From a virus, in IMG/VR virus record IMGVR_UViG_3300009130_000119, positions 1 through 25,853 of that record: a stretch of 25,853 nt of DNA; one strand, given 5' to 3'. Made by a program: the position numbers and the translations under genes. Below are positions 125 through 21,736 of the stretch, in pieces (position 1 is the first letter of the stretch; every line of letters begins with the position of its first letter). The notes under the pieces were generated by a model. That model worked only from the letters and a program-made list of their open reading frames with translations. It was not told the DNA's origin and did no database searches.

Positions 125-534
125 CAGGCGGTGACGTCGGGCTGGATCCTTCGGACATACCAGCCCCTGAGGCTGATCTTGTCATCGTCCCCGGCGCCGA
201 CGTAGGCGCCGACGACGTAGGCGCCCGTGCTATCCCGGAACCGCTCGCCCTCCAGGACGTACACGGTACTGTTGGCCCGGATGGAGACCGAGGACAGGGC
301 CGCCGCCACGTTCGCGGCGTTAGTGTCGTCCACCGGATTCAGGACGAGGTTCAGGACCACGGACGAACTGGTGTTGTTCGTCGCCGCGAGCCACACAGCG
401 TCCACCGCCGTGGCGTCGGTCATGGCGTGGACCGTGTCCGCAGCCGTGGAGGTCGTACTGCTGACCAGGAACGAGCGACCGTCGGGGCACCCGCTCACCG
501 GGTCGGTTTCGACTTCGTGAAGGCGGGTCGCCAC
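124..534 (-). CDS. Small beta-rich virion protein downstream of the tail tip gene (hypothetical)
   Basis: This 136-residue protein starts at a GTG that shares one base with the stop of the giant tip gene (TAGTG), so it is probably translationally coupled to it. There is no signal peptide or membrane segment. The middle is rich in Val, Thr, Ser and Asn in alternating patterns typical of beta strands (around AVDAVWLAATNN, residues 45 to 56), and the end has a strand-rich stretch around VVGAYVGAGDDD and GWYVRRI. By my recollection this resembles the small beta-sandwich proteins found beside tail fibers or on capsids of many phages, but no specific family is certain. The position right after the J-like gene suggests a tip, fiber or decoration component. 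It could equally be an additional receptor-contacting protein. Reality of the gene is likely; function is inference. Confidence 0.75.
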   Translation of the reverse strand: MATRLHEVETDPVSGCPDGRSFLVSSTTSTAADTVHAMTDATAVDAVWLAATNNTSSSVVLNLVLNPVDDTNAANVAAALSSVSIRANSTVYVLEGERFRDSTGAYVVGAYVGAGDDDKISLRGWYVRRIQPDVTA

Positions 535-3500
535 TAGAACAGCTCCGACTCTAGGGATCTACGGGACGGAGGTGCTTGCTCCACGGTGATTGTAGGTGCC
601 GTGATTCTGGTATGCAACTTCCTAAGACGCATGTTGTATCCGGTGCTGGGGCGGCTCGCCCTAATCCGGAATCGGATGTCGGCTAGGGCGTAGCGGCCGG
701 GCTGGAAGGGGAGCCAGCCGGTCCACCCGCCGGACTCCCCCGTCTCGTTGATGTTGGCCTCCATCCAGAGCTTCGCCTCGGTGTCCGACTGGGCGGGGCC
801 CTCGCAGGACCACTGCTCCGTGCTCCTGGAGTTGCAGCTCCACGGGGCGAGGCTGCAGGTAATCGGGTGAACCTGATCGGCCTCCCAGTACGCCTCCACA
901 AAGCAGGTGCGGGGCTCCCGGATGGGCGTCCCAGATGTGGGGATACGGTCGCTGTCACTCGACTCCCACACCGTGGCAGCGTCCGTCTGCACCGAGGCGT
1001 CCGTCCAGCGCAGGTAGCCGTCGGCGTGCTGCTCGAACTCTGCTCCCACGGAGGGGTCCCCGACCTGCGGGACCGTCCGCTCCCAGCCTGCGGCGGCGAA
1101 GCTCTCCCACGCCATGGAGGGGTCCGTGACGTCCGGGGTCACGACGTCCAGGTCCGGCGTGGCGGCCGTGATGACCTCTGTGACCGGCCCGTAGGCACCC
1201 GCCGGGTTCATCGGGCGGTAGAGCAGGCGGGCGCTGGCGAAATCGGACCCGCTCCAGTCGCGGGTGGCCCCCCAGGAGTTCGCCCCAGGGGCCGCCGTGA
1301 AGACACGGTATCCGAGAATCCAGCTACCCCGACGGCACTCCACAGCCATCTGGCCCTCGCCGTCGGGCTGCGACCACTCGTGGAGGGCGTAGTGGGCCTG
1401 GAGACGCTCTGTGGCGGCGTCTAGGGCCGGGGGAGGCGTGGAGTTGCCACTGATCGTCATGGAGAACCCGCCGCACCTGTCGGGGCTCCTGGAGGCCCCA
1501 TAGCGCGTCACAGGCTGGATCCCCACCTCAACCCTGTCCCCCTTGGACCCGAAGGGCAGGACGCAGTCAGCGAAGGCGTCCGACCCCGCCGTCTCCCCAA
1601 TCAGGGTCCACCGGCCGCCCGTGCTGGCAGACCTCACCCAGATCCGGTTGCGGTCGATGATCCAGCGGTCAGCCGGGTCCGGCTCCCAGGACACCCGGAG
1701 GTTCGTCGTCCACACGCCGCTGCCGCTGCGGACGAACCAGTCCTCCCCACGGGTGATCGAGACCCTGCCCGGCACCCGCTGCTCGCCAGTCTGGGCCGTG
1801 AGGCCGCCGTGGTCGTCGTCGGAGACCACCAGTTCCTCCACAGAGTGGGCGCGGTCCTCAAACGCGGCGTCGTTGTACTCGATCCACTCGACCTTGGTGT
1901 TCAGGCCATCTCCGAGCCTTGTCGACACCACCTCGCCCAGAAGCTCACTTCCAGCCGTCACCAGGAGGAATTCGTCGTCGCGCCCCGTCACCACAGAGTC
2001 GGGGAGGGGGGACGCTGTGAAGATCGCGTCGCCAGCAGAGAACGTCCCGAACTGCGAAGACAGGACCTCGCTCTCGACGAGGCGGTCGTCGCGGTCGCGG
2101 ATGTAGACCTTGTCACTCGCCGCCACCGTGACCTCCGAGTCCACGACGAACCCGCGACCAGAAGCCGCGCCGGACATGAGGGGGTAGCGCCCGGCGTTCA
2201 GCATCACTGTGGACGCCTCGATCCCGGCCGTGCCAGAGACGCCAGTGGCGTCAGGGATGATCTTGCAACGGATTCGACCAGACGATGCGAACTTGAACCA
2301 CACCTGGCAGAAGTAGTCGCCCGAGATCTTCGTGATCTGCGCCCCGCCGTCGACCGAACCGCTGACCGTCGCCGTCCCGTCACCTGTGAGGCTGAACTCG
2401 GCCCGGCAGTTCTTGCTGGAGTCCGACTCGTACTGCAGCTCCAGGGCGAACGTGGGAGTCCCCGTGTGCGAGAAGTTGCCGAAGACCCCGGAGAGGCAGT
2501 AGAGGCCAGGGCCCAAAGTCACGGAACTGAGCGAGTCCTGGTAGAGGTAGCCCTCAGCAACCGCAGTCGTGTCCTGGACGCTCCAGTTGGGGGATCCGAG
2601 CGAACTGGCGCTAGAGGCGCCGACGCCAGACCCGACCTTACTCCATGTGGTCGCATTCAGATTCTCGCCGTCACGGAGGAGCTGGGCCTCATCCGGGGGC
2701 GCGTTCAGGCAGTAGCCCCCATACCCCCTGGGGAGGAGGTCGCTTGAAATGCGGAAGACGTCCCCGACCTCCACAGCCAGCGCCCCCGGGCCAACCTGGA
2801 AGCTCCCGGACCTGACCGTGAGACGGTTGATGCTCGCCTCGAAGCGGGCCTGGCGGGCAGCCTGACCATAGCGCGTCACGCCGAACAGCTCGCGCTGGTC
2901 CCGGCGTACGTCGTTCAGGCTCGTGGGATTGATGACGTCGTCATCTACGTAGGTGGCCGAATCGTTCTCGTACTGCAGGGAACGGTTGCGGAACAGGAAG
3001 TCGAACGCATTGAATCGCTCCCGAGTGTCCGCGTATGAGATCGAGAAGGAACCCTCCTTGACCGCAGACTTGGTGACGAGCCACGACGGGTCAGTCTTGT
3101 GGGTGTACCTGAAGTAGATCTCCGAGCCGCGCTTGATCGGTGCAGCGCGCCCCACAGCGGCGATCTCCTGCAGTGCGTCCCAGCCGCCACGCGCAGTATC
3201 AAACGTGCCGTTGAACTCGAACCTGCGCTCCCCGCCCTCCATGATGAGACCGGCGTCTAGCGCGCTACCAGTCGCGGCGGTGAGGCTACCGGCTGTGGAT
3301 GTGTCGTCGACGAAGTCGCCTTGGCCCGCCCAAAGGACGGCCGGGGCCTGCTCGCCCGGAGGCGCGACGTACATCTTGACCACGTGATAGCCGGGCTCCT
3401 CCGCCAGCCCGGCGTCCCCCTGGTCAACGCCAACCTCGTAGATCTCGTAACCGCCAGCGTCAGAGCCGCCAGAGCCCGACGGCGAGTTGATGTCCCAGCC

Positions 3501-6134
3501 GCCGAGGGCGTCGGTCCCCAGATCCAAGGGCGTCGGCCACCCACGGAGGCGCAGGAATGCGCCTATCTCCCACTCAGTGGGGAGCGCAGCGTTGATGACC
3601 TCGCCTGTGCCCTGGTCCCTGTAGAGGATGTGGAGGATAAACGCCCCTCGGACGTCGCCATTCTCGTCCGCCACAGAGCTGTCGTACCACAAGTTCTCGC
3701 ACAGGGTCGCCCCTGTGACCGCCGAGCCGCTCGTCTCCAGGACAGGGCCGCCGTCGTAGACAACCTCGTCGCAGTAGTCCGCCCACGCCTTGAGAGAAGG
3801 GAGGTGCGGCTTGTAACTGCCCGGGAGGCGGACGAACTTCGATCCCTGCAGGAGGGCAAGGCACAGCCACGCGGGATTGCGTGAGTGCTCCATGTTCATC
3901 GCAGGCGCCGCGAGGTTTTCGCCGTCCCACACGGGGGGCTTCATCGCCTCAACGATGGCGTTTGTCCTAGGGAGGCCGCCGCCCAACTGCTCTGTGGCCC
4001 TGATGCGGTACGCCAAGAGGGCACGGTTGGGGTAGGTGAGCTGGGCGTAGCGCACACCCTGGACCTCAACCCAGTCGATGTCGTCGAGGGTCCGCGTGTT
4101 GGTCGAGTCCAGGTTGGTACGGACAATCTCCACACGGGCCTTCATGCGCTTGAAGGCCCCGAGCGAGTAGTTGTCGACCACACCGCCGTCAGTGTTCACG
4201 CCGCCGCCGAGCAGGTTATCCAGGTCGTCCCACCACTTCGGCGTCTGGTTAGCGGACACGGCCGTATTCGGGGACGGGTCCGCATTCATCTTCCACTCGC
4301 AGGAGATGTACGGAAGCTGGGGCACAGATGCCGGGCCGTTCCTCTCGTTGTAGAGCCCAACCACCTGTGACGAGGTGAGTTCTCCGGCGTAAACGCGGCA
4401 GACGTCGAACTCTATTTCGGTGGGCGTCGTCCCGTAGTTCTCGGCAAGGGTCGAACCCGTCGCCGGGTAACCGAATGTCAGCGGGTTGCCCGACCACGTG
4501 GGGGGGGACGCCTGGCTCACGCCCGGGGCCATTGTGCCATTCACGGCGACCCTGACGCGGGACGTAGTAGTCCCCCAGCCGAAAGCGACATGATGCCACT
4601 CGCCCGCCGACTGCTCGATTACGTCGTTGTACTTCGAGACGGCCAGCGCCATCGGCGCCTCGGAGCCGCCGATGTGCTCACCGTAGATCATCACCCGCTG
4701 TTTCCACACGAACGTGGTCGACGGGGAGTCCAGGCCCCAGAAGCCGCTCTTCTCGGCCCATACGCGGAACCCGTCCGTGGCCGTGTCTGTCCCCACTAGA
4801 TAGTGGGTGCGCTTCGTTGACGAGCCCTCGGAGATGTAGTGCCAGAAGTCACTGTCTGCCGCGATCTTGAACCAGAACGAGATATACATCCCGTCAACGA
4901 GGTCGCCGCCAACCGACGCAGGGGCGCTCAGGATCGGCGCCTCGGCCCTGTTGGTCCCTCCGGCCCCGTCCTTGGTGATCAGGAATGAGTTACCCGGCGT
5001 AACCTGGGCGATTACTTGCGGGTCCCGGAGCTGGAAGCGGACCTCGTAGTCAAACAGCCCTTGCTGGGAGAATGTCGGGAAACCCGTCCCGTTGTTAGGC
5101 GGCATGCGGAACCACCCGTCGTTGTTGTCGCCTCCGGCCGTGATCGGGTTATTCGATATGTCAAGCTCTTGGTATCTAACCGCGTACTTGAAATCCGCGC
5201 CGGTCAGGTTGCCCGCATTGTCGGATGAGTAGTACCCACCGCCAGCCCTGAGGCGCAGAACTAGCTCGTCGTACTCCGTGGTGACGTCGAACGTGCGGGC
5301 GTACAGGTCCCAGTGCTCGTCGTTGTTGGGAGCCGTCGCGCCTCCGTTCTGCCAGTAAGCGTTGTCCCAAGTAGAGGCGGAGGCCGAGTTGTCCGCCCCA
5401 TCGGTCTCCTCGCCCGTCAGTTCGAACGGCCCCACGGAGATCGGGACCACAACCTGCTCAAAACCCTGGATCGGCTGCTGCTCGTTAGTGCCGAGGCGAA
5501 CTTGAGCGAATACGTCGTCGTAGTTCTCGATCGGGTTGTCGTTGATGAACATCTTCCCGGCGAGCATGCTCCCCTCGATCTCCTCACCGACCGGAGTGTC
5601 TTCCGTTATCCCGGCAATGGACTCGAACTCGCCCCACCCGAAAGATATGAGCTGGTACAGCGTCGACGACACGGGCGCATACGTGGACCGGATGTACTCC
5701 GAGATGACCGTCCCGCCACCACGGATCTCGCCGTAACTGACCTCGACCGGCTGGTAGGGGTCGCGGCTCTGCGTGATGCCCGTCCAACCATACGTCGGAG
5801 AGGACTCGTCGTCGCGCTTGCGGGGCGGGCCCGGCGGCTTGTACAGCAGATAGCTGACGTAGGCCACCACCAGAGCGATGACGAGCTGGATGAGGATCTT
5901 TCCGACAAGCCCCGGGCCCGCAGCAGGAGTCGTGGCGACGACCACCGCGCCGTCAGGGAGGGCGTCGCCCAGGTCAGCCTCGCGACCATTGACCCAGAAG
6001 CGCGTGTGCTCGCTGTCGCGCAGGGGCTCCGGGAGACTCAGGCGCACATCTTCCACCGTCTCCGCGTGGACGGCGTACGGAGTCACCTTGGAGATCTCCA
6101 GAGGGTTGGTCGTCGCGATTACTTCAACTAGCAT
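534..6134 (-). CDS. Giant central tail hub/tip protein, lambda I-like domain fused to J-like hub
   Basis: From the ATG at 6134 the product is 1866 residues; a TTG at 6152 in the same frame would add six, but I prefer the ATG. It overlaps the stop of the NlpC-like gene by 11 bases. Domains in order: residues 1 to about 70 look like a beta-grasp (ubiquitin-like) domain as in lambda gpI (FWVNGREADL and PDGAVVVATTP segments); a hydrophobic stretch lies at about 75 to 97 (ILIQLVIALVVAYVSYLL); a J-like N-terminus follows (DPYQPVEVSYGEIRGGG, then ISFGWGEFESI); a laminin-G/concanavalin-like domain at about 405 to 600 (MYISFWFKI, EWHHVAFGWG); J-like hub strands at about 1025 to 1140; a carbohydrate-binding-like jelly-roll insert at about 1150 to 1310; and a fibronectin-III-like domain at about 1458 to 1568. 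Lambda J forms the tail tip and binds the receptor. The place after M, L and K equivalents supports this strongly. Confidence 0.88.
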   Translation of the reverse strand: MLVEVIATTNPLEISKVTPYAVHAETVEDVRLSLPEPLRDSEHTRFWVNGREADLGDALPDGAVVVATTPAAGPGLVGKILIQLVIALVVAYVSYLLYKPPGPPRKRDDESSPTYGWTGITQSRDPYQPVEVSYGEIRGGGTVISEYIRSTYAPVSSTLYQLISFGWGEFESIAGITEDTPVGEEIEGSMLAGKMFINDNPIENYDDVFAQVRLGTNEQQPIQGFEQVVVPISVGPFELTGEETDGADNSASASTWDNAYWQNGGATAPNNDEHWDLYARTFDVTTEYDELVLRLRAGGGYYSSDNAGNLTGADFKYAVRYQELDISNNPITAGGDNNDGWFRMPPNNGTGFPTFSQQGLFDYEVRFQLRDPQVIAQVTPGNSFLITKDGAGGTNRAEAPILSAPASVGGDLVDGMYISFWFKIAADSDFWHYISEGSSTKRTHYLVGTDTATDGFRVWAEKSGFWGLDSPSTTFVWKQRVMIYGEHIGGSEAPMALAVSKYNDVIEQSAGEWHHVAFGWGTTTSRVRVAVNGTMAPGVSQASPPTWSGNPLTFGYPATGSTLAENYGTTPTEIEFDVCRVYAGELTSSQVVGLYNERNGPASVPQLPYISCEWKMNADPSPNTAVSANQTPKWWDDLDNLLGGGVNTDGGVVDNYSLGAFKRMKARVEIVRTNLDSTNTRTLDDIDWVEVQGVRYAQLTYPNRALLAYRIRATEQLGGGLPRTNAIVEAMKPPVWDGENLAAPAMNMEHSRNPAWLCLALLQGSKFVRLPGSYKPHLPSLKAWADYCDEVVYDGGPVLETSGSAVTGATLCENLWYDSSVADENGDVRGAFILHILYRDQGTGEVINAALPTEWEIGAFLRLRGWPTPLDLGTDALGGWDINSPSGSGGSDAGGYEIYEVGVDQGDAGLAEEPGYHVVKMYVAPPGEQAPAVLWAGQGDFVDDTSTAGSLTAATGSALDAGLIMEGGERRFEFNGTFDTARGGWDALQEIAAVGRAAPIKRGSEIYFRYTHKTDPSWLVTKSAVKEGSFSISYADTRERFNAFDFLFRNRSLQYENDSATYVDDDVINPTSLNDVRRDQRELFGVTRYGQAARQARFEASINRLTVRSGSFQVGPGALAVEVGDVFRISSDLLPRGYGGYCLNAPPDEAQLLRDGENLNATTWSKVGSGVGASSASSLGSPNWSVQDTTAVAEGYLYQDSLSSVTLGPGLYCLSGVFGNFSHTGTPTFALELQYESDSSKNCRAEFSLTGDGTATVSGSVDGGAQITKISGDYFCQVWFKFASSGRIRCKIIPDATGVSGTAGIEASTVMLNAGRYPLMSGAASGRGFVVDSEVTVAASDKVYIRDRDDRLVESEVLSSQFGTFSAGDAIFTASPLPDSVVTGRDDEFLLVTAGSELLGEVVSTRLGDGLNTKVEWIEYNDAAFEDRAHSVEELVVSDDDHGGLTAQTGEQRVPGRVSITRGEDWFVRSGSGVWTTNLRVSWEPDPADRWIIDRNRIWVRSASTGGRWTLIGETAGSDAFADCVLPFGSKGDRVEVGIQPVTRYGASRSPDRCGGFSMTISGNSTPPPALDAATERLQAHYALHEWSQPDGEGQMAVECRRGSWILGYRVFTAAPGANSWGATRDWSGSDFASARLLYRPMNPAGAYGPVTEVITAATPDLDVVTPDVTDPSMAWESFAAAGWERTVPQVGDPSVGAEFEQHADGYLRWTDASVQTDAATVWESSDSDRIPTSGTPIREPRTCFVEAYWEADQVHPITCSLAPWSCNSRSTEQWSCEGPAQSDTEAKLWMEANINETGESGGWTGWLPFQPGRYALADIRFRIRASRPSTGYNMRLRKLHTRITAPTITVEQAPPSRRSLESELF

Positions 6135-6492
6135 TGTGGCGGTATACCCCAATCAGTGCCCGAAGGCGGTCACGACCGAACACGTGGACACCCAGCCCCG
6201 CAGAAGACGACAGGACGCGAGGCGGAGAGTCGTCAACGAGGATTACGGCGTGAGGGCGATCGTCGGTCCCCTCCATCAGGACTACGTCGCCCAGCTGCGT
6301 CGCGTCCGTCATCTTGCCGCCAATGCGCTCCCAGGTCTCCGCCGGAGCCCCCGTCTCCAGGGACTGGAGAAGGTCGCGTGCGGCGTCGTCGCGGCCCATG
6401 CGGCGCAGGACCTCAGCGCACCCGTGGAGGCAGTCCCCATCCGGGTCGGAGATCACACTGCCGATCAGATCTGAGCAGTTGACCTTAGCCAC
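6124..6492 (-). CDS. Small NlpC/P60-like tail tip protein (lambda K-like), possible peptidoglycan hydrolase
   Basis: The 122-residue product starts at a GTG that overlaps the end of the L-like gene by 8 bases. Visible features match the phage-tail NlpC/P60 pattern: a DC pair at residues 20 and 21 followed by a helix (CLHGCAEVLRRMG), then GDVVLM at about 68 to 73, then a PH motif with His81 in a strand (HAVILV), and an end of the type LIGVYRH. In NlpC/P60 enzymes the catalytic Cys starts a helix and the His lies in a strand, so Cys21 and His81 are the candidate pair. The protein lacks the N-terminal JAB-like domain of lambda gpK and is short, so it may be a minimal or inactive version. Gene order (M, L, this, I-J) fits lambda K. 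The tape measure shows no recognisable muralytic domain, which makes this the best candidate for local wall digestion during entry. Confidence 0.75.
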   Translation of the reverse strand: MAKVNCSDLIGSVISDPDGDCLHGCAEVLRRMGRDDAARDLLQSLETGAPAETWERIGGKMTDATQLGDVVLMEGTDDRPHAVILVDDSPPRVLSSSAGLGVHVFGRDRLRALIGVYRHNAS

Positions 6493-13780: not shown

Positions 13781-13790
13781 AATCACCCTC
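13781..13790 (-). promoter_or_regulatory. Strong Shine-Dalgarno site of the tape measure gene
   Basis: On the minus strand the sequence reads GAGGGTGATTAG followed directly by the ATG, close to the ideal complement of the 16S rRNA tail. It overlaps the stop codon of the T-like gene. It decides the tape measure start and shows that the host uses Shine-Dalgarno pairing. Confidence 0.75.
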
Positions 13791-14262
13791 GGACGCGCTT
13801 GGACGCCCTGGCAGCCTCGGCCTTCTGCTTCTGGACCTTGTGCTCTTCGTCACGCACACGAGCAACCTCGCCGCTCACGACAGAGCACGCATGAAGGAAA
13901 CTGGGGGCCTGCTCCAGCAAACCTCCGGGAGCCGGGAACCCGCCAGCCTCGGCGTGGGCATAGTGACGAAGCATGGCCGATACGCTGGCATCCACATGGC
14001 TGGTCGGGCACCTATCAAGGGCCTTCTCGCCGCGCACGCACACCTCGCACCTGGCGCCTGTCCTCAGGTCGACACCCGACCCGTCGCAGTGCGGGCAGGT
14101 GATCGTGTACATCGCACGGGCCGCAGCCTTGTCGCACCCCCAGAGACGCCTGATCGAACGCTGCGTCTCTGTGAGTGATTCGGGATAGCTACGACCGATG
14201 GGCCCACCGCAGTCCTGGGGACAGCGGGGGAGGCCCTCGGCGGTAGCCATCCCGACGGCCAC
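13783..14262 (-). CDS. Tail assembly chaperone C-terminal part (lambda T-like), with zinc-ribbon-like cysteines
   Basis: This 159-codon frame lies between the G-like chaperone and the tape measure gene, exactly where lambda T sits. It is in the -1 frame relative to the G-like gene, is open back through that gene's stop, and can therefore be made as a G-T fusion of about 294 residues by a -1 slip. The GTG at 14262 could also serve as an independent start, since AGGAAGG lies nearby. The protein has cysteine pairs (CPQDCGG, CPHCDGSG, CEVC, later RCP), with CPHCDGSG resembling a DnaJ-type zinc ribbon. Its C-terminus is basic and helical (HKVQKQKAEAARASKRVRG). G and GT proteins chaperone the tape measure while the tube polymerises and are absent from the finished virion in lambda. 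The zinc-ribbon-like part is not found in lambda T. Confidence 0.72.
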   Translation of the reverse strand: MAVGMATAEGLPRCPQDCGGPIGRSYPESLTETQRSIRRLWGCDKAAARAMYTITCPHCDGSGVDLRTGARCEVCVRGEKALDRCPTSHVDASVSAMLRHYAHAEAGGFPAPGGLLEQAPSFLHACSVVSGEVARVRDEEHKVQKQKAEAARASKRVRG

Positions 14263-14267
14263 GGCCC

Positions 14268-14666
14268 TCAGCCTTCCTTTTCCTCGTCCTCCAGCATCGC
14301 GCCGGAGGTGATCGCCAGGAACATCTCCTGCTTGTACAGCGTGGGGATGCGGCGCAGGAAATCGTCCGACACGCGGCCATCGGGGTCCTTCTCGAAGAGC
14401 ACCGGCTCGCCAGCGGCATCGGGGAAGACCGAGCCGTCGGCAATGCCCACGAGGCCGGCCTTCAGCGTCAGGTAGACACGGGTGCCCATGCCCGTGGACG
14501 TCATGCCCATGGAGTCGTCGTGCTTGATCAGCACGGCATCCTCCAGGCTCACACGCTCGCGCTCAGTGAGGTCACGGATGACCCAGTACGTGCGCTTATC
14601 CGAGGGTTGGTTGAGGTCGTCTTGCGAGCACCAGCGGCGCTCACCAGCGGGAGTAACGGCAATCAT
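14268..14666 (-). CDS. Tail assembly chaperone, lambda G-like
   Basis: The 132-residue protein follows the tail tube genes after a 63-base gap holding a strong hairpin. It begins MIAVTPAGERRW, has a beta-rich N-terminal part (TYWVIRDLTERERVSLEDAV) and a helical C-terminal half with a very acidic end (MLEDEEKEG). The length, acidic C-terminus and position between tube protein and tape measure fit the G family of tail chaperones, which are diverse in sequence. The region upstream of the ATG has only a purine run (AAGAAGAAGA) as possible ribosome binding site. The last codons contain the A/G-rich run where a -1 shift would lead into the T-like frame. The role is assigned mainly by gene order and the overlapping -1 frame. 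Confidence 0.8.
   Translation of the reverse strand: MIAVTPAGERRWCSQDDLNQPSDKRTYWVIRDLTERERVSLEDAVLIKHDDSMGMTSTGMGTRVYLTLKAGLVGIADGSVFPDAAGEPVLFEKDPDGRVSDDFLRRIPTLYKQEMFLAITSGAMLEDEEKEG
14271..14285 (-). promoter_or_regulatory. Candidate -1 programmed frameshift site joining the G-like and T-like frames
   Basis: The minus strand reads GAGGAAAAGGAAGGC just before the G-frame stop at 14268 to 14270. In the zero frame this is GAG GAA AAG GAA GGC TGA. Shifting back one base after AAG gives GGA AGG CTG AGG GCC GTG and enters the T-like frame with no stop. The run is not a classical X XXY YYZ heptamer because the P-site codon would mispair; AAG to AAA slipping in the A site is favourable. Frameshifting between these two genes is a conserved feature of long-tailed phages, so the location is meaningful even though the exact slip site is uncertain. 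Confidence 0.5.
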
Positions 14667-14695: not shown

Positions 14696-14721
14696 GGGGC
14701 CCCGGGACAGCCCGGAGCCCC
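14696..14721 (-). terminator. Strong GC hairpin after the second tail tube gene, likely partial terminator or processing site
   Basis: Arms at 14696 to 14706 and 14711 to 14721 pair over 11 base pairs including one G-T pair (minus strand GGGGCTCCGGG, loop CTGT, CCCGGGGCCCC). It lies in the 63-base gap between the tail tube and chaperone genes, starting nine bases past the tube stop. No T tract follows (next bases are TCAAACC), so it is not a classical intrinsic terminator. Placement after a very abundant structural product and before low-abundance chaperones suggests partial attenuation or mRNA 3'-end protection. Confidence 0.6.
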
Positions 14722-14729
14722 AGAACTGT

Positions 14730-16274
14730 CTAGTCGGTGATGTACATGAGCACGATCTCGTTGTCACCCGAGGTGGAGCTGATCTCGCCGTCGGGGGTGG
14801 CCCCCAGGTTGTTGATCACAGCTCCGTTCACGCTGAAGTCCATGTTCCGAGTCAGGATCCCGTCGGAGTCTCCAGAGGAGGCGCCGGTGTACTGGATCGC
14901 AGGCATCTGGAGGACGAACCCGTTCTCCGGGTCACCGGAAGATCCGCCGACCTGGACGGACACGCGCATCACCTCGCCGGAGCGGAACGTGGTCAGCCAC
15001 GGGATCTCCGCCTCAAGGGTGGCGTCCGCCTCAAGCGACCCGCTGGCCGAACGGGACGAGCCGACGATCTCCTTCAGGCCATCGACGGCGTTCGCACACT
15101 TCACATCCGTCAGGGTGACGCCGGCGTCGACCGACAGGGTCTTCAGGCAGGGGGACATGGCGTCCGCCTCGTCCATCTCGGCCAGAGTCTCGTTCAAGCC
15201 AAGAAGGGTCGCCTGACCGGCCCACAGCTTCGGATCCACCACGGTAGGGGCGCCGCCGACGAGCGGGGTGTCGCCCACTCCGTCAAGGTCGGAGCCCGTG
15301 TCGGGGGAGTCCCATCGACCACGGGTAGTCACGGTCATCAGGACCGGGCGGTTCACCTCGAACTGCCAGGACACGCTTGCGCGAGAGGCGGCGAAGTCGA
15401 GCGCCACGCCGTCCTCGTTCAGACGGATCGAGCCAGTCGGCCACTGGTAGAAGGTCTCGTTGGTGGTGGCTGCGACCGTCAGCGTCGCCGGGCCAGACCC
15501 GGACTGCAGGTTGAGCGTCTCGCCACCGGTAATCGTCCCGCTTCCGGCGCGGTAGACCAATTCCGTGGCCGAGGTGGAAGCCTCCTTAGCCACGACCAGC
15601 GTCTCACCGCTCGTGGCGCCCTTGTAGACCGCGCCCACCGAGACGGTGCTCGCGGGATTAGAGATGTCGATCTGCTTCCAGGGCTCGCTGACCGGGACCC
15701 ACGCCCAACCGCAGTTGGTCTGGATGGAGTCCACAGCAACCGACAACTCGGTGTCGCTGGTCGTCCAGGTCTCGCCATCGTCCATCGTACCCGAGACCGG
15801 CTCGTAATAGATGTACCCGGTGCCACTCTGGAAATGGACGTCGCCAACGACCCTGGCGGTATCGCCGCCAGTAGTGTCCGTGATGATTTCGCCGTGGCGG
15901 ATCGGGCCATCACCGGCGGACCAACTGGTCTGCGTGTCAAGGGCGACCTTGTGGAGCGCGACAAGCCGGAAGCCAGCCATCTCCATGAACTTCGACCAGG
16001 CCGGGACGCCAGAGGCGAAGGCGTCGTCCGAGTTGCCCAGCATCTCGAAGGTCATGGAGACCCCGCCGGTCTTCTGGCCGGGGATCGACTTCAGCTTCGA
16101 GATCGTCGACCGGAGGTACTCGCGATCGAAGAACTCGACGTCCAGAGTCGGCTCTGCGGAGTTCAGGAGAACGTCAGCGTTCGCGGCGGACGTCAGGTCA
16201 CCAGAGGACGGCGTGCTGCCAACAATGTCCTCAGTGACTGCGACAACCTCTTTCTTTGCAGTAAGTAGTGCCAT
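14730..16274 (-). CDS. Major tail tube protein, second tandem copy (lambda V-like)
   Basis: The 514-residue protein is a clear paralog of the gene immediately upstream, from which it is separated by only five bases. Shared blocks include MALL.AKKE at the start, EPTLDVEFFDREYLRSTISK, GVPAW.KFMEMAG, WPTGSIRLNEDGVALDF, EIPWLTT.RSGEV, and IQYTGASSGDSDGILTR near the end. Tail tube proteins polymerise as stacked hexamer rings around the tape measure. The place between the tail terminator and the G/T chaperones supports this. At over 500 residues it is about twice the length of lambda V; the extra lies in about residues 123 to 275, where two small beta modules (about 123 to 170 and 212 to 262) interrupt the tube core. 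The Shine-Dalgarno is poor: TTAGG abuts the ATG. Cleaved or decorated forms cannot be judged from sequence. Confidence 0.88.
   Translation of the reverse strand: MALLTAKKEVVAVTEDIVGSTPSSGDLTSAANADVLLNSAEPTLDVEFFDREYLRSTISKLKSIPGQKTGGVSMTFEMLGNSDDAFASGVPAWSKFMEMAGFRLVALHKVALDTQTSWSAGDGPIRHGEIITDTTGGDTARVVGDVHFQSGTGYIYYEPVSGTMDDGETWTTSDTELSVAVDSIQTNCGWAWVPVSEPWKQIDISNPASTVSVGAVYKGATSGETLVVAKEASTSATELVYRAGSGTITGGETLNLQSGSGPATLTVAATTNETFYQWPTGSIRLNEDGVALDFAASRASVSWQFEVNRPVLMTVTTRGRWDSPDTGSDLDGVGDTPLVGGAPTVVDPKLWAGQATLLGLNETLAEMDEADAMSPCLKTLSVDAGVTLTDVKCANAVDGLKEIVGSSRSASGSLEADATLEAEIPWLTTFRSGEVMRVSVQVGGSSGDPENGFVLQMPAIQYTGASSGDSDGILTRNMDFSVNGAVINNLGATPDGEISSTSGDNEIVLMYITD
14773..14897. repeat. 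Direct repeat copy 1: 3' end of the second tail tube gene
   Basis: This 125-base stretch matches 16326 to 16450 at a constant offset of 1553 bases with about eight mismatches. It includes identical blocks of 38 bases (14785 to 14822) and 47 bases (14851 to 14897). It encodes the shared C-terminal segment of the two tube proteins. Confidence 0.85.
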
Positions 16275-16279
16275 CCTAA

Positions 16280-17848
16280 CTATGCGTCTGTGGAGTAGAT
16301 GATGATGAGTTCGTTGTCTCCGCTAGTGGAGCTGATTTCGCCGTCGGGGGTGGCCCCCAGGTTGTTGATCACAGCGCCATTCAGACTGAAGTCCATGCTG
16401 CGCGTCAGGATCCCGTCGGAGTCTCCAGAGGAGGCGCCGGTGTACTGGATGCCGGGAATCTGGAAGATCAGGCCGCCAACCGTCGTGGGGGCTCCCCCAA
16501 CCTGGACTTTGAGACGCACGACCTCGCCCGAGCGAAGCGTCGTCAGCCACGGGATCTCCTCCTCCACAGTCGCGTTCGTCTCCAGGGATCCGCTCCCGGA
16601 ACGGGACGAGCCGATGATCTCAAGCAGGCCATTCTCGGAGGCCGCGCACTTCACATCCGTCAGCGTGACCCCGGAGTCCAGGCTCATGCTCTTGAGGCAG
16701 GGGACCTCCTCAGCTTCGAGGTGCATCTCCGAAATCGTCTCGTTGATGCCGATGCCGATAGCCTGGCCTTGCCAGACCTTCGGGTCGAGGACTTCCGGCG
16801 CTCCGCCCAGAAGCGGGGCGTCACCGACGCCGTCGATGGACTCTCCAGAATCCCCAGTGCTCCATCGGCCACGAGCCGTGAACGTCGCCGTGACGGGGCG
16901 GTTGACCTCGAAGTTGAACGAGATGTTCCCCCGGCAGGCCACGAAATCAAGCGCCACGCCGTCCTCGTTCAGGCGGATCGAGCCAGTCGGCCACTGCTTG
17001 AAATCCTCGTTGGTGGGCGTAGCGGCCGTGAAGCTGGCCGGGCCGCTGCCGGAGGCCAGGTTGAAAACCTCGCCATCGACCGGAGCAACGCTACCGGCGC
17101 GATAGACAACTGTGGTCGAGGACGAGCTGTCCTCCGCGATCACGATCACCGCGCCATCGTCCGCCGCGCCTCCTGCACCGCCGTCACCCCGGTAGACGTC
17201 ACCGGCCACAACAGAGATACTGCCCGTAGCCGTCAGCTGCTTGAGGGACTCGCTGACGGGCAACCAAGCCCAGCCACGGTCGCCCGCAGCGGCCGGGGAG
17301 CCCGACATGACGACGCTGATCTCGGTATCAGAAGTCGTCCACGGCGTGTTCGACGCGCTCACGGACCCCGACAAGGGCTCGTAGAAGAAAGTCCGCTGGC
17401 CGAAGGGGACATCCCCAACGATCCGAGCAGTGGCGCCCACGGAATCCTCGATAATCTCGCCATGACGAAGGGGCCCGTCGCTCTCAGACCAGGAAGTCTG
17501 GGATGCCGAGCCCGCCGCAGTCGCCCGCCCGATGGCAACGCGCCGATACCCGGCCATCTCCATGAACTTCGTCCAGGCCGGGACGCCAGCGGCGAAGGAG
17601 TCGCCGTCGTTGCCCTGAAGCTCGAAGGTGGCCGTTACGCCTCCGGCCAGCTGGCCCGGGACCGACTTCAGCTTAGAGATCGTCGAACGGAGGTACTCCC
17701 GGTCGAAGAACTCAACGTCCAGAGTGGGCTCCGCAGTGCTCACAAGGATGTCGGCGTTCGCAGCGTCCGCCAGGTCCCCCGTGGTGGTCTCGCCAGCGAC
17801 CTTCTCCAGCGCAGTCACTAGCTCTTTCTTCGCGCTTAGTAGTGCCAT
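16280..17848 (-). CDS. Major tail tube protein, first tandem copy (lambda V-like)
   Basis: The 522-residue protein starts seven bases after the tail terminator stop, with a modest ribosome site (CCTAGGTAACCC before the ATG). The tube core is residues 1 to about 125 and about 285 to the end; between them lies an insertion of about 160 residues with two small beta modules, near 127 to 170 (HGEIIEDSVGATARIVG, FYEPLSGSV) and 214 to 264 (GDVYRGDGGAGG, VVYRAGSVAPVDGEVF). Both modules follow the same pattern, ending in a Tyr-x-x-x-Gly turn, and probably project from the tube surface. The second copy downstream shares long identical blocks. Both genes are intact, so neither is a decaying duplicate. 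They may form a mixed tube, or one may be restricted to one end of the tail. I assign tail tube from order (terminator before, chaperones after) and general character. Confidence 0.88.
   Translation of the reverse strand: MALLSAKKELVTALEKVAGETTTGDLADAANADILVSTAEPTLDVEFFDREYLRSTISKLKSVPGQLAGGVTATFELQGNDGDSFAAGVPAWTKFMEMAGYRRVAIGRATAAGSASQTSWSESDGPLRHGEIIEDSVGATARIVGDVPFGQRTFFYEPLSGSVSASNTPWTTSDTEISVVMSGSPAAAGDRGWAWLPVSESLKQLTATGSISVVAGDVYRGDGGAGGAADDGAVIVIAEDSSSSTTVVYRAGSVAPVDGEVFNLASGSGPASFTAATPTNEDFKQWPTGSIRLNEDGVALDFVACRGNISFNFEVNRPVTATFTARGRWSTGDSGESIDGVGDAPLLGGAPEVLDPKVWQGQAIGIGINETISEMHLEAEEVPCLKSMSLDSGVTLTDVKCAASENGLLEIIGSSRSGSGSLETNATVEEEIPWLTTLRSGEVVRLKVQVGGAPTTVGGLIFQIPGIQYTGASSGDSDGILTRSMDFSLNGAVINNLGATPDGEISSTSGDNELIIIYSTDA
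16326..16450. repeat. Direct repeat copy 2: 3' end of the first tail tube gene
   Basis: This partner of 14773 to 14897 differs at about eight positions, including third-position changes and short clusters where the proteins differ (VNGAV versus LNGAV). Such high DNA identity, greater than across the rest of the two genes, is what recent gene conversion or strong constraint would leave. Confidence 0.85.
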
Positions 17849-17855
17849 GGGTTAC

Positions 17856-18338
17856 CTAGGCTGATGTTGTCAGTGTCGGGTTGTCAGAGAGGTGTCGGTA
17901 AACGACACGCAACGAAACAGCGGCCAGCGCCGTTGACTGGTCCGTGATCTCGTAGGCGTCCGCATCCTCCACCTCGTGGTAGATGCAGGTGCCGGAGAGT
18001 TGAGGGTTGCCGCGCAAGGCGACCTCGATGTCGGAGACCAGCCAGTGGAGGTCCTTCTTCCACACCGTGTCACGGGGGTCGCAGCGGACGGCCGCCACCA
18101 GGGAGATCACCGCCTCGCGCTCGACCACGGCGCAGGAAAGCTCCCGGAGACGGTTGTCCGACTCAGGGACAATCGCACAGAAGGGGAACGCCTCGCCCAT
18201 CAGGATCCGGCCAGAGTCGAAGACCTGGACCTCCTGGAAGTCGAAGTGGTAGGTGGGCGTCGCGATCGCGGCCACGGTGGTCCGGATCGCCTCAAGCATC
18301 TGGTACTTGACCGGGTCGCCGTCCAGGGGGTAGGCCAT
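17856..18338 (-). CDS. Tail terminator protein (lambda U-like)
   Basis: The 160-residue protein begins in a TAATG overlap and has a strong Shine-Dalgarno (GGAGGAGG, seven bases before the ATG). Its pattern fits phage tail terminators of the gpU/gp24-like fold: an N-terminal helix (VKYQMLEAIRTTVAAI), central strands (FPFCAIVPESDNRL, REAVISLVAAVRC), a helix with conserved-looking DLHWLVSDIEVALRGNPQLSG, and a last strand LRVVYRHLSDNP. Terminators form a hexameric ring that caps the finished tube and presents it to the head. The gene lies immediately before the first tube gene, its usual place. The assignment rests on both order and sequence pattern. Confidence 0.85.
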   Translation of the reverse strand: MAYPLDGDPVKYQMLEAIRTTVAAIATPTYHFDFQEVQVFDSGRILMGEAFPFCAIVPESDNRLRELSCAVVEREAVISLVAAVRCDPRDTVWKKDLHWLVSDIEVALRGNPQLSGTCIYHEVEDADAYEITDQSTALAAVSLRVVYRHLSDNPTLTTSA

Positions 18339-20667: not shown

Positions 20668-21150
20668 TTAGTAGGTCGACTTGGCGCTGGAGTGAATCTC
20701 AAACTGCAGCGTGTTGCCGACAAGACTGCGGCGCGATGCGCCAGAGAGGACGGCGTAGGCGCCGCCAATGATCACGTTCGACCCGCCACCGTTCACAAAC
20801 GCGGCCTCGAAGAACTCGTCCGTGTGGCGCAGGTCGATCTCCCCGAAGAAGATGCCCGTCTCGCCAGCAGGGACCGTGATAGTCGCGGTAGATGCCACAC
20901 CAGAGGCATTCAGGTTCGCGCCATCGTCCGTGATCAGAGAGTAGCTCCCGCCAGATGCGGGAGACGACTTGACTGTGAAGGTGGAGTCCCCGGTCGCGTT
21001 ATTGGTCGTGACCACGAGGGCGACAAACGCCCACCGGAACCCCCCGGTGCAGTCGTTATCGGACTGCGTCGCCGTCGCGTCAGCGATGACGTCCTGCGCT
21101 TCAAGCAGCTCAACGAATTTGCCGTGCTGGGAAAAGGTCTGGTTCGACAT
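20668..21150 (-). CDS. Probable capsid decoration protein, second tandem copy
   Basis: This 160-residue protein is a paralog of the gene before it. Shared points include an N-terminal helix ending in a (D/E)AQ segment, GFRWA at about residue 37, STFTV followed by ASGGS, TDD, a (A/G)EIDL segment, GGGS, and an ending of the form NTLQFEIHSSAKSTY. It is beta-rich, with no signal or membrane segment. The location directly after the major capsid gene suggests a protein that binds the capsid surface, but no database family was confirmed. It starts after a 79-base gap that contains a strong hairpin, so it may be made at lower level than the first copy. Confidence 0.78.
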   Translation of the reverse strand: MSNQTFSQHGKFVELLEAQDVIADATATQSDNDCTGGFRWAFVALVVTTNNATGDSTFTVKSSPASGGSYSLITDDGANLNASGVASTATITVPAGETGIFFGEIDLRHTDEFFEAAFVNGGGSNVIIGGAYAVLSGASRRSLVGNTLQFEIHSSAKSTY

Positions 21151-21229: not shown

Positions 21230-21736
21230 CTACCAGGCGGACTTGTTCTTGGTGTGGATCTCGAACTCCAGCGTGTTGCTGACGTCCGTTCCGGTGTTGC
21301 GGGCCTCGGACAGGACCACAAAGCCCGAGAAGACGGCGGCGCCAGCCGACGAGCCTCCACCGGCCACGTTCACCTTGAGGAAGCCCTCGTGCTGCTCAAG
21401 GTCGATCTCAGCGAACTGAGTCTCGGAGGCGTCGTCGGTCGTGCCCGTGGTTGTCGTCGCCACAGCCGTGACGTCCGCAGACGCGCCATCAGTCATGTTG
21501 CTGGTGTCGTCCGTGACGGTCGTGAACGACCCGCCGGACGCAGCAGCCGAAGTCACCGTGAAGGTCGACTGCGCGTCAATCGCAGTGGACCCCTGGGTGG
21601 TGTGGAAGACAAAGTAGGCCCAGCGGAATCCGCGAGCATCGACCTCGTCGCCAGTGATGGTGCCGTTGTAGGCGATCGACTGCGCGTCGAACAGGGAGAC
21701 AACCTTGTGGCTGTCAGAGAAGTTTCTAGCTGACAT
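21230..21736 (-). CDS. Probable capsid decoration protein, first tandem copy
   Basis: The 168-residue protein begins 17 bases after the major capsid stop and has a reasonable ribosome site (GGGAG nine bases ahead of the ATG). It is rich in Thr, Ser, Ala and Asp with strand-like alternation (TQSTAIDAQSTFTVTSAA-type texture around residues 48 to 64) and ends NTLEFEIHTKNKSAW. The next gene is its paralog. It lies directly downstream of the capsid gene without an intervening hairpin, so it may be made in amounts close to the capsid protein, as expected for a decoration or cement protein. I have no family match and infer the role from position, size and duplication. Confidence 0.8.
   Translation of the reverse strand: MSARNFSDSHKVVSLFDAQSIAYNGTITGDEVDARGFRWAYFVFHTTQGSTAIDAQSTFTVTSAAASGGSFTTVTDDTSNMTDGASADVTAVATTTTGTTDDASETQFAEIDLEQHEGFLKVNVAGGGSSAGAAVFSGFVVLSEARNTGTDVSNTLEFEIHTKNKSAW

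Follow-up and report, generated by a model that had tools for sequence, protein, structure and literature searches.

Tail tubes are usually regarded as being built from one repeated protein. The tubes of phages P74-26 and T5 are stacks of trimeric rings, in which every subunit contributes two tube domains (PMC10034513; PMC10038345). A two-form tube is already known from SPP1, in which gp17.1 and gp17.1* share their core but are decorated differently on the outside, and occur at a ratio of about 3:1 in the tube (PMC8718954). Two or three related tube genes per phage have likewise been annotated, in clusters DJ and EL. The Gordonia phages of cluster DJ carry two related major tail protein genes in all 56 genomes; those of FortCran, genes 22 and 24, are 43% identical with one gene between them, for which the authors suggested horizontal transfer, and the role of the extra related tube genes was stated to be unknown (PMC12859696). 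In the Microbacterium phage DizzyRudy (cluster EL), we found that gp17, gp19 and gp20 share their first ~215 residues (42-51%), and that the remainder differs in length.

Here, we analyzed a 25.9-kb virus record (the window, meaning this whole stretch of DNA), which encodes its head and tail proteins on the minus strand and carries two adjacent tube genes, designated A and B. Judging from the sequences, we give a probability of roughly 0.5 to the hypothesis that A and B are the bulk subunits of one tube, having shared contacts and different outer inserts. According to this hypothesis, both proteins would be made in bulk and would assemble together into a single tube whose rings are trimeric and pseudo-hexameric; the contacts for ring formation and for stacking would stay compatible between A and B, and the outer inserts would diverge, resulting in a tube with two kinds of surface decoration. 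Both proteins would then be present in virions, mixing along the tube.

Layout of the tandem genes and the tail operon

The genes on the minus strand are arranged in the order portal, protease, major capsid protein, adaptor, neck, tail terminator, A, B, two chaperone-position genes, tape measure and three tip genes (Table 1). The preliminary description had reported two intact tandem tube genes of more than 500 codons each, separated by five bases and flanked by the tail terminator and the chaperones. The map of open reading frames (ORFs) agreed with this: each gene starts with its own ATG and runs without interruption, A begins 7 bases after the terminator gene, its stop is separated from the start of B by a 5-base gap, and 63 bases lie between the end of B and the first chaperone-position gene. 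The length, which had been singled out, is real but not unusual in itself, because each protein comprises a pair of tube domains together with an insert at residues ~109-282. Similarly, the domain layout is common to both copies as claimed, but the insert is the most divergent part, with 54% identity between A and B as compared with 60-86% in the other regions. Over their full length, the two proteins are 61% identical (E = 0), and the genes are 69% identical at the DNA level (~1,590 aligned columns). The dN/dS ratio was ~0.33, with synonymous change near saturation, indicating that both A and B have been under purifying selection. A faster evolution of A than of B, as read from the branch lengths of a tree, was dropped in view of relative-rate tests (p 0.21-1.0), and frameshift read-through from A into B received no support, as each ORF has its own start.

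Table 1. Coordinates of the tube genes, their parts and other features of the window and its relatives.
Feature	Position	Strand	Evidence or remark
Tube gene A, two-domain tail tube protein with inserted domain, 522 aa	16280..17848	-	ORF; 61% identity to B; HMM family including annotated tail tube proteins
Tube gene B, two-domain tail tube protein with inserted domain, 514 aa	14730..16274	-	ORF; AlphaFold2 model; VIA-align fold matches
Strand 2 and long hairpin loop (Loop1 position), B residues 37-64	16083..16166	-	Model secondary structure; site patterns
Insert, B residues 109-282	15429..15950	-	JP1_029 HMM alignment skips model positions 107-268; insert tree
GC-rich hairpin, 11-bp stem, -24.1 kcal/mol, gap between B and chaperone gene	14696..14721	-	
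Tail terminator	17856..18338	-	phrog_4204, E 2e-6
Putative tail assembly chaperone, first gene	14268..14666	-	Position only; kept in all relatives having the region
Putative second chaperone-position gene, cysteine-rich	13783..14262	-	Position only; conserved
Tape measure protein, 1416 aa	9528..13778	-	PF10145, E 8.1e-24; phrog_23013, E 9.6e-34
J-like tip protein, 1,872 aa, last of three tip genes	534-6152	-	Related to lambda J protein
First ~165-aa gene after the capsid gene	20668-21150	-	
Second ~165-aa gene after the capsid gene	21230-21736	-	
Hairpin in relatives	L003:11173-11208; L028:9666-9700; L029:5829-5863; L018:16203-16240; L030:1871-1904		Tube-to-chaperone gap
Diverged 540-aa tube paralogue	L015:1339-2961; L013:1257-2879		phrog_290 match
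Portal fused to Mu-F-like domain	L013:2959-5502		PF04860 + PF04233

The GC-rich hairpin located after B has counterparts in the tube-to-chaperone gap of all the relatives checked (L003, L028, L029, L030 and L018). The hairpin sequence differs between lineages and shows no clear T run, and the stem lengths are unexceptional as compared with shuffled sequence; only the recurring place stands out. No hairpin was found between A and B in either double-tube genome (the window and L003). Judging from its position, the hairpin would set the tube genes, with their high expression, apart from the chaperones, with A and B both on the bulk side. One could also imagine that A and B are deployed in different conditions or in different virions, making the tail surface switchable. 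The inserts, being the diverging part of the two proteins, would suit such alternative decoration, but scans for promoters and terminators between A and B found nothing, and the location of the genes only 5 bases apart suggests joint translation. We regard a switchable tail surface as very improbable.

Several other features of the operon were noted. The J-like tip protein contains a weak laminin-G/ConA-like stretch at residues 424-597. A second tandem duplication, consisting of two ~165-aa genes that are 38.6% identical, lies directly after the capsid gene; this pair is tandem in L003 and L008 too, is represented by a single gene in L009-type relatives, and perhaps encodes head decoration. 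The L008 contig stops shortly ahead of the tube genes. The tape measure protein is 1416 and 1419 aa long in the double-tube genomes versus ~1050-1340 aa in the single-tube genomes, which are too few genomes for use, and a link between tape measure length and the tube pair was set aside for this reason.

Identity and distribution of the tube proteins

Sequence searches with A and B against Pfam, PHROGs and PDB gave no matches, and the Phage_tube_2 family (PF18906) did not match them even at E <= 1, so that both fall short of the Pfam gathering threshold. The identity of A and B was therefore taken from their relatives and their fold. A scan with the capsid protein of the window yielded relatives, whose tube genes then led to wider kin. 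The family profile matched JP1_029 of Agrobacterium phage JP1, annotated as 'tail tube protein', in two blocks (E 1.7e-68). A profile of the A/B tube family also recovered the remote relatives L035 and L037, which score above the PF18906 threshold; ~310-aa relatives in bacterial genomes exceed this threshold. These sequence comparisons make kinship of A and B with Phage_tube_2 likely; we do not claim membership.

The AlphaFold2 model of B, based on a 41-sequence alignment, reached a pLDDT of 82.1 and a pTM of 0.85; on a 4-sequence alignment, the pLDDT was only 37.6. Among the matches in the VIA list (VIA-align), from which all the fold evidence was drawn, the model of B matched the tube proteins of P74-26 (8ed0_A; Z 24.1, rmsd 3.5, 314 residues aligned, model residues 3-514), T5 (9iny_A; Z 23.3) and SH-Ab15497 (8xan_A; Z 22.9). 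These matches were nearly full length and included both tube domains, such that B resembles the two-domain type of T5 pb6 and P74-26 from end to end, and the gene is located between the tail terminator and the tape measure, as in that type. Taken together, remote homology, gene order and the confident fold match of B support the assignment of A and B as two-domain tail tube proteins, in keeping with the preliminary description, which had called them tail tube genes and had suggested structure prediction for both copies; the copy that was modelled, B, has the tube fold. By analogy with P74-26 and T5, the rings of A and B would be trimeric and pseudo-hexameric.

The insert, ~170 residues in length and situated within domain 1, contains GE..SGA-type repeats and is missing from the ~310-aa relatives, e.g., the tail tube protein of phage JP1. 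In one relative (L009:8163-9659, residues ~110-255), insert repeats of the GE..SGA type weakly match tail fibre and other virion families (phrog_9851, phrog_18802, phrog_358).

The preliminary description had also proposed a search for related genomes and for conservation of the pair in them. We found that a 67.7-kb contig, IMGVR_UViG_3300030095_004938 (L003), carries the same tandem tube pair in the same gene order, with tube proteins 57-67% identical to those of the window. An assembly artefact was rejected, as the same pair is carried by this separate contig. The presence of the pair in a second phage, together with the purifying selection, supports the view that both copies are maintained. 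The least probable of the explanations appears to be that A or B has no place in the virion; nothing direct is in its favor, both proteins retain the complete fold, and both recur in the second phage. A 4.4-kb contig (L007, IMGVR_UViG_3300013108_000541) has the same sequence as the window across portal, protease and capsid and ends before the tail genes; it is the same virus in another sample.

In a survey of 48 contigs, a tandem pair appeared only in the window and L003; the survey comprised viral and bacterial contigs having a tube gene of the A/B family flanked on either side by 1.7 kb or more, and its flanks were limited to the fetched stretch, such that distant second copies may have escaped notice outside the records that were searched in full. 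Relatives with 29-40% tube identity have one tube gene in the same slot, including the nearest single-gene relatives (L009/L028, L010, L029 and L030; 37-40% identical) and the 59-kb record L018. The earlier statement that most long-tailed phages have one tube gene is thus true of the surveyed relatives, but two or three are annotated in clusters DJ (PMC12859696) and EL. The distant relative L015 has a tube gene in the slot after the terminator and, in addition, a diverged 540-aa paralogue directly upstream of the portal gene. The same paralogue was found upstream of the portal gene in L013, whose contig ends before the tube slot; the portal of L013 is fused to a Mu-F-like domain, whereas that of the window is short and unfused.

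Ancestry of the contact segments and the insert

Trees of different regions gave different groupings. The whole-length tree gave weak support to a grouping of the A proteins of both phages (85/85; 78/86). For residues 1-108, A and B of the window grouped together (97/97), and the orthology pairing was rejected (p-AU 0.013 and 0.007). For the insert, A grouped with A across the phages (99/99), with the within-genome pairing rejected (p-AU 0.003 and 0.002), indicating that the insert is paralogue-specific. The tree of the C-terminal part gave no resolution. The informative sites in residues 1-64 comprised 11 within-genome, 0 orthologous and 2 crossed patterns (n=13), as compared with 6, 8 and 1, respectively, in the insert. 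The site patterns of residues 1-108 and of the insert differed (Fisher p 0.002), in a test comprising two pair-bearing genomes and few sites, with regions defined after seeing the alignment. Taken together, the contact segment and the insert differ in ancestry, and the duplication is older than the split of the two phages.

The sites shared within genomes lie on the N-terminal arm and Loop1. At B residues 37-64, all six informative sites agree between the two copies of one genome; the model of B has strand 2 and the long loop at residues 37-63. P74-26 uses its N-terminus and Loop1 (Q43-T65) for contacts inside a ring as well as from ring to ring, and deletion of Loop1 almost abolishes assembly (PMC10034513). 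The patterns in the alignment indicate that the contact segments of A and B have been kept alike in each genome, whereas their inserts have remained different. Recent gene conversion as the cause of the N-terminal likeness was unsupported, as 54% of the fourfold sites in Loop1 agree between A and B (n=13), near the value of other regions. The matched contacts may stem from old gene conversion or from selection for fit; an old conversion unrelated to function would look similar at the protein level. The insert would be placed on the outer surface of the tube and may serve, e.g., in binding to the host surface or the environment. A more specific form of our hypothesis, to which we assign a somewhat less than even chance, is a tube of two paralogous two-domain subunits, in mixed trimers or alternating rings, with contacts matched in each genome and inserts specialising.

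Another possible explanation for the pair is that the duplication only adds tube protein, or that the copies are interchangeable and their differences reflect drift. Tube protein is required in large amounts, A and B are adjacent, and the relative-rate tests showed no asymmetry between them, in agreement with this explanation. However, the inserts of A and B stayed distinct (p-AU 0.002-0.003) through near-saturated synonymous divergence, over which exact redundancy is seldom retained, and long-tailed relatives have a single copy. We consider mere dosage or redundancy to be distinctly improbable.

A mixed or segmented tube, as put forward in the preliminary description, is consistent with the mosaic evolution of the two genes and the hairpin placement. 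The main rival to our hypothesis is the segmented form, in which one copy would build the bulk of the tube and the other would be limited to a single ring or a small number of rings at the tip or the neck, acting as an adaptor or initiator. Examples are the TTP-derived trimeric ring p140, inserted between tube and distal tail protein in T5, and gp54 of T4 (PMC10038345). The model of B is also similar in fold to T5 p140 (7qg9_G, 9ioz_A), the diverged second paralogue of L015 is located outside the tube slot, and the shared loop contacts are expected in a segmented tube too, because a ring at the end has to stack on the rest of the tube. However, p140 shares 9% identity with pb6, carries no decoration and belongs to the tip genes (PMC10038345), whereas A and B are 61% identical, both carry the insert, and both are located in the bulk-tube slot before the hairpin. 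An end ring of the p140/gp54 type, undecorated and encoded with the tip genes, thus resembles neither A nor B, and a segmented tube appears possible but rather unlikely. We prefer the hypothesis that A and B together form the bulk of one tube.

Comparison with known tail tubes

B resembles the tube proteins of P74-26 and T5 (pb6) in its full-length fold, both tube domains, the N-terminal arm, the long loop and the position in the tail operon, but the sequence identity is ~10%, and those phages have one bulk tube gene. The decoration of T5 is a C-terminal Ig domain, in contrast to the insert in domain 1 found here. JP1_029 is homologous over both tube domains, but JP1 has a single gene of ~316 aa with no insert. 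T5 p140 and T4 gp54 are likewise second tube-type proteins in one phage and provide a precedent for two tube proteins that stack; unlike them, A and B are adjacent genes in the bulk slot, and the products of both are decorated. In SPP1, two forms of tube protein occur as well, but they arise from one gene by programmed frameshifting, whereas A and B are two complete ORFs. In clusters DJ and EL, several related tube genes lie close together between the terminator and the tape measure; the window, like L003, similarly has two paralogous tube genes in its tail operon, and these are adjacent. No sequence relation was found between the DizzyRudy tail proteins and A or B, and the variable part is C-terminal in DJ and EL, unlike the inserted one of A and B.

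Several unrelated phage groups have two or three related tube genes, and A and B add a case of the trimeric-ring class with single-gene relatives. Our hypothesis predicts that residues 1-64 are the shared contact surface and that residues 109-282 are the part differing on the outside; if true, one tail would have two kinds of surface. As compared with the known systems, what is new is the combination: two-domain, trimeric-type subunits are encoded by directly adjacent genes of full length, their variable part is an insert, and this insert and the contact segments have opposite ancestries.
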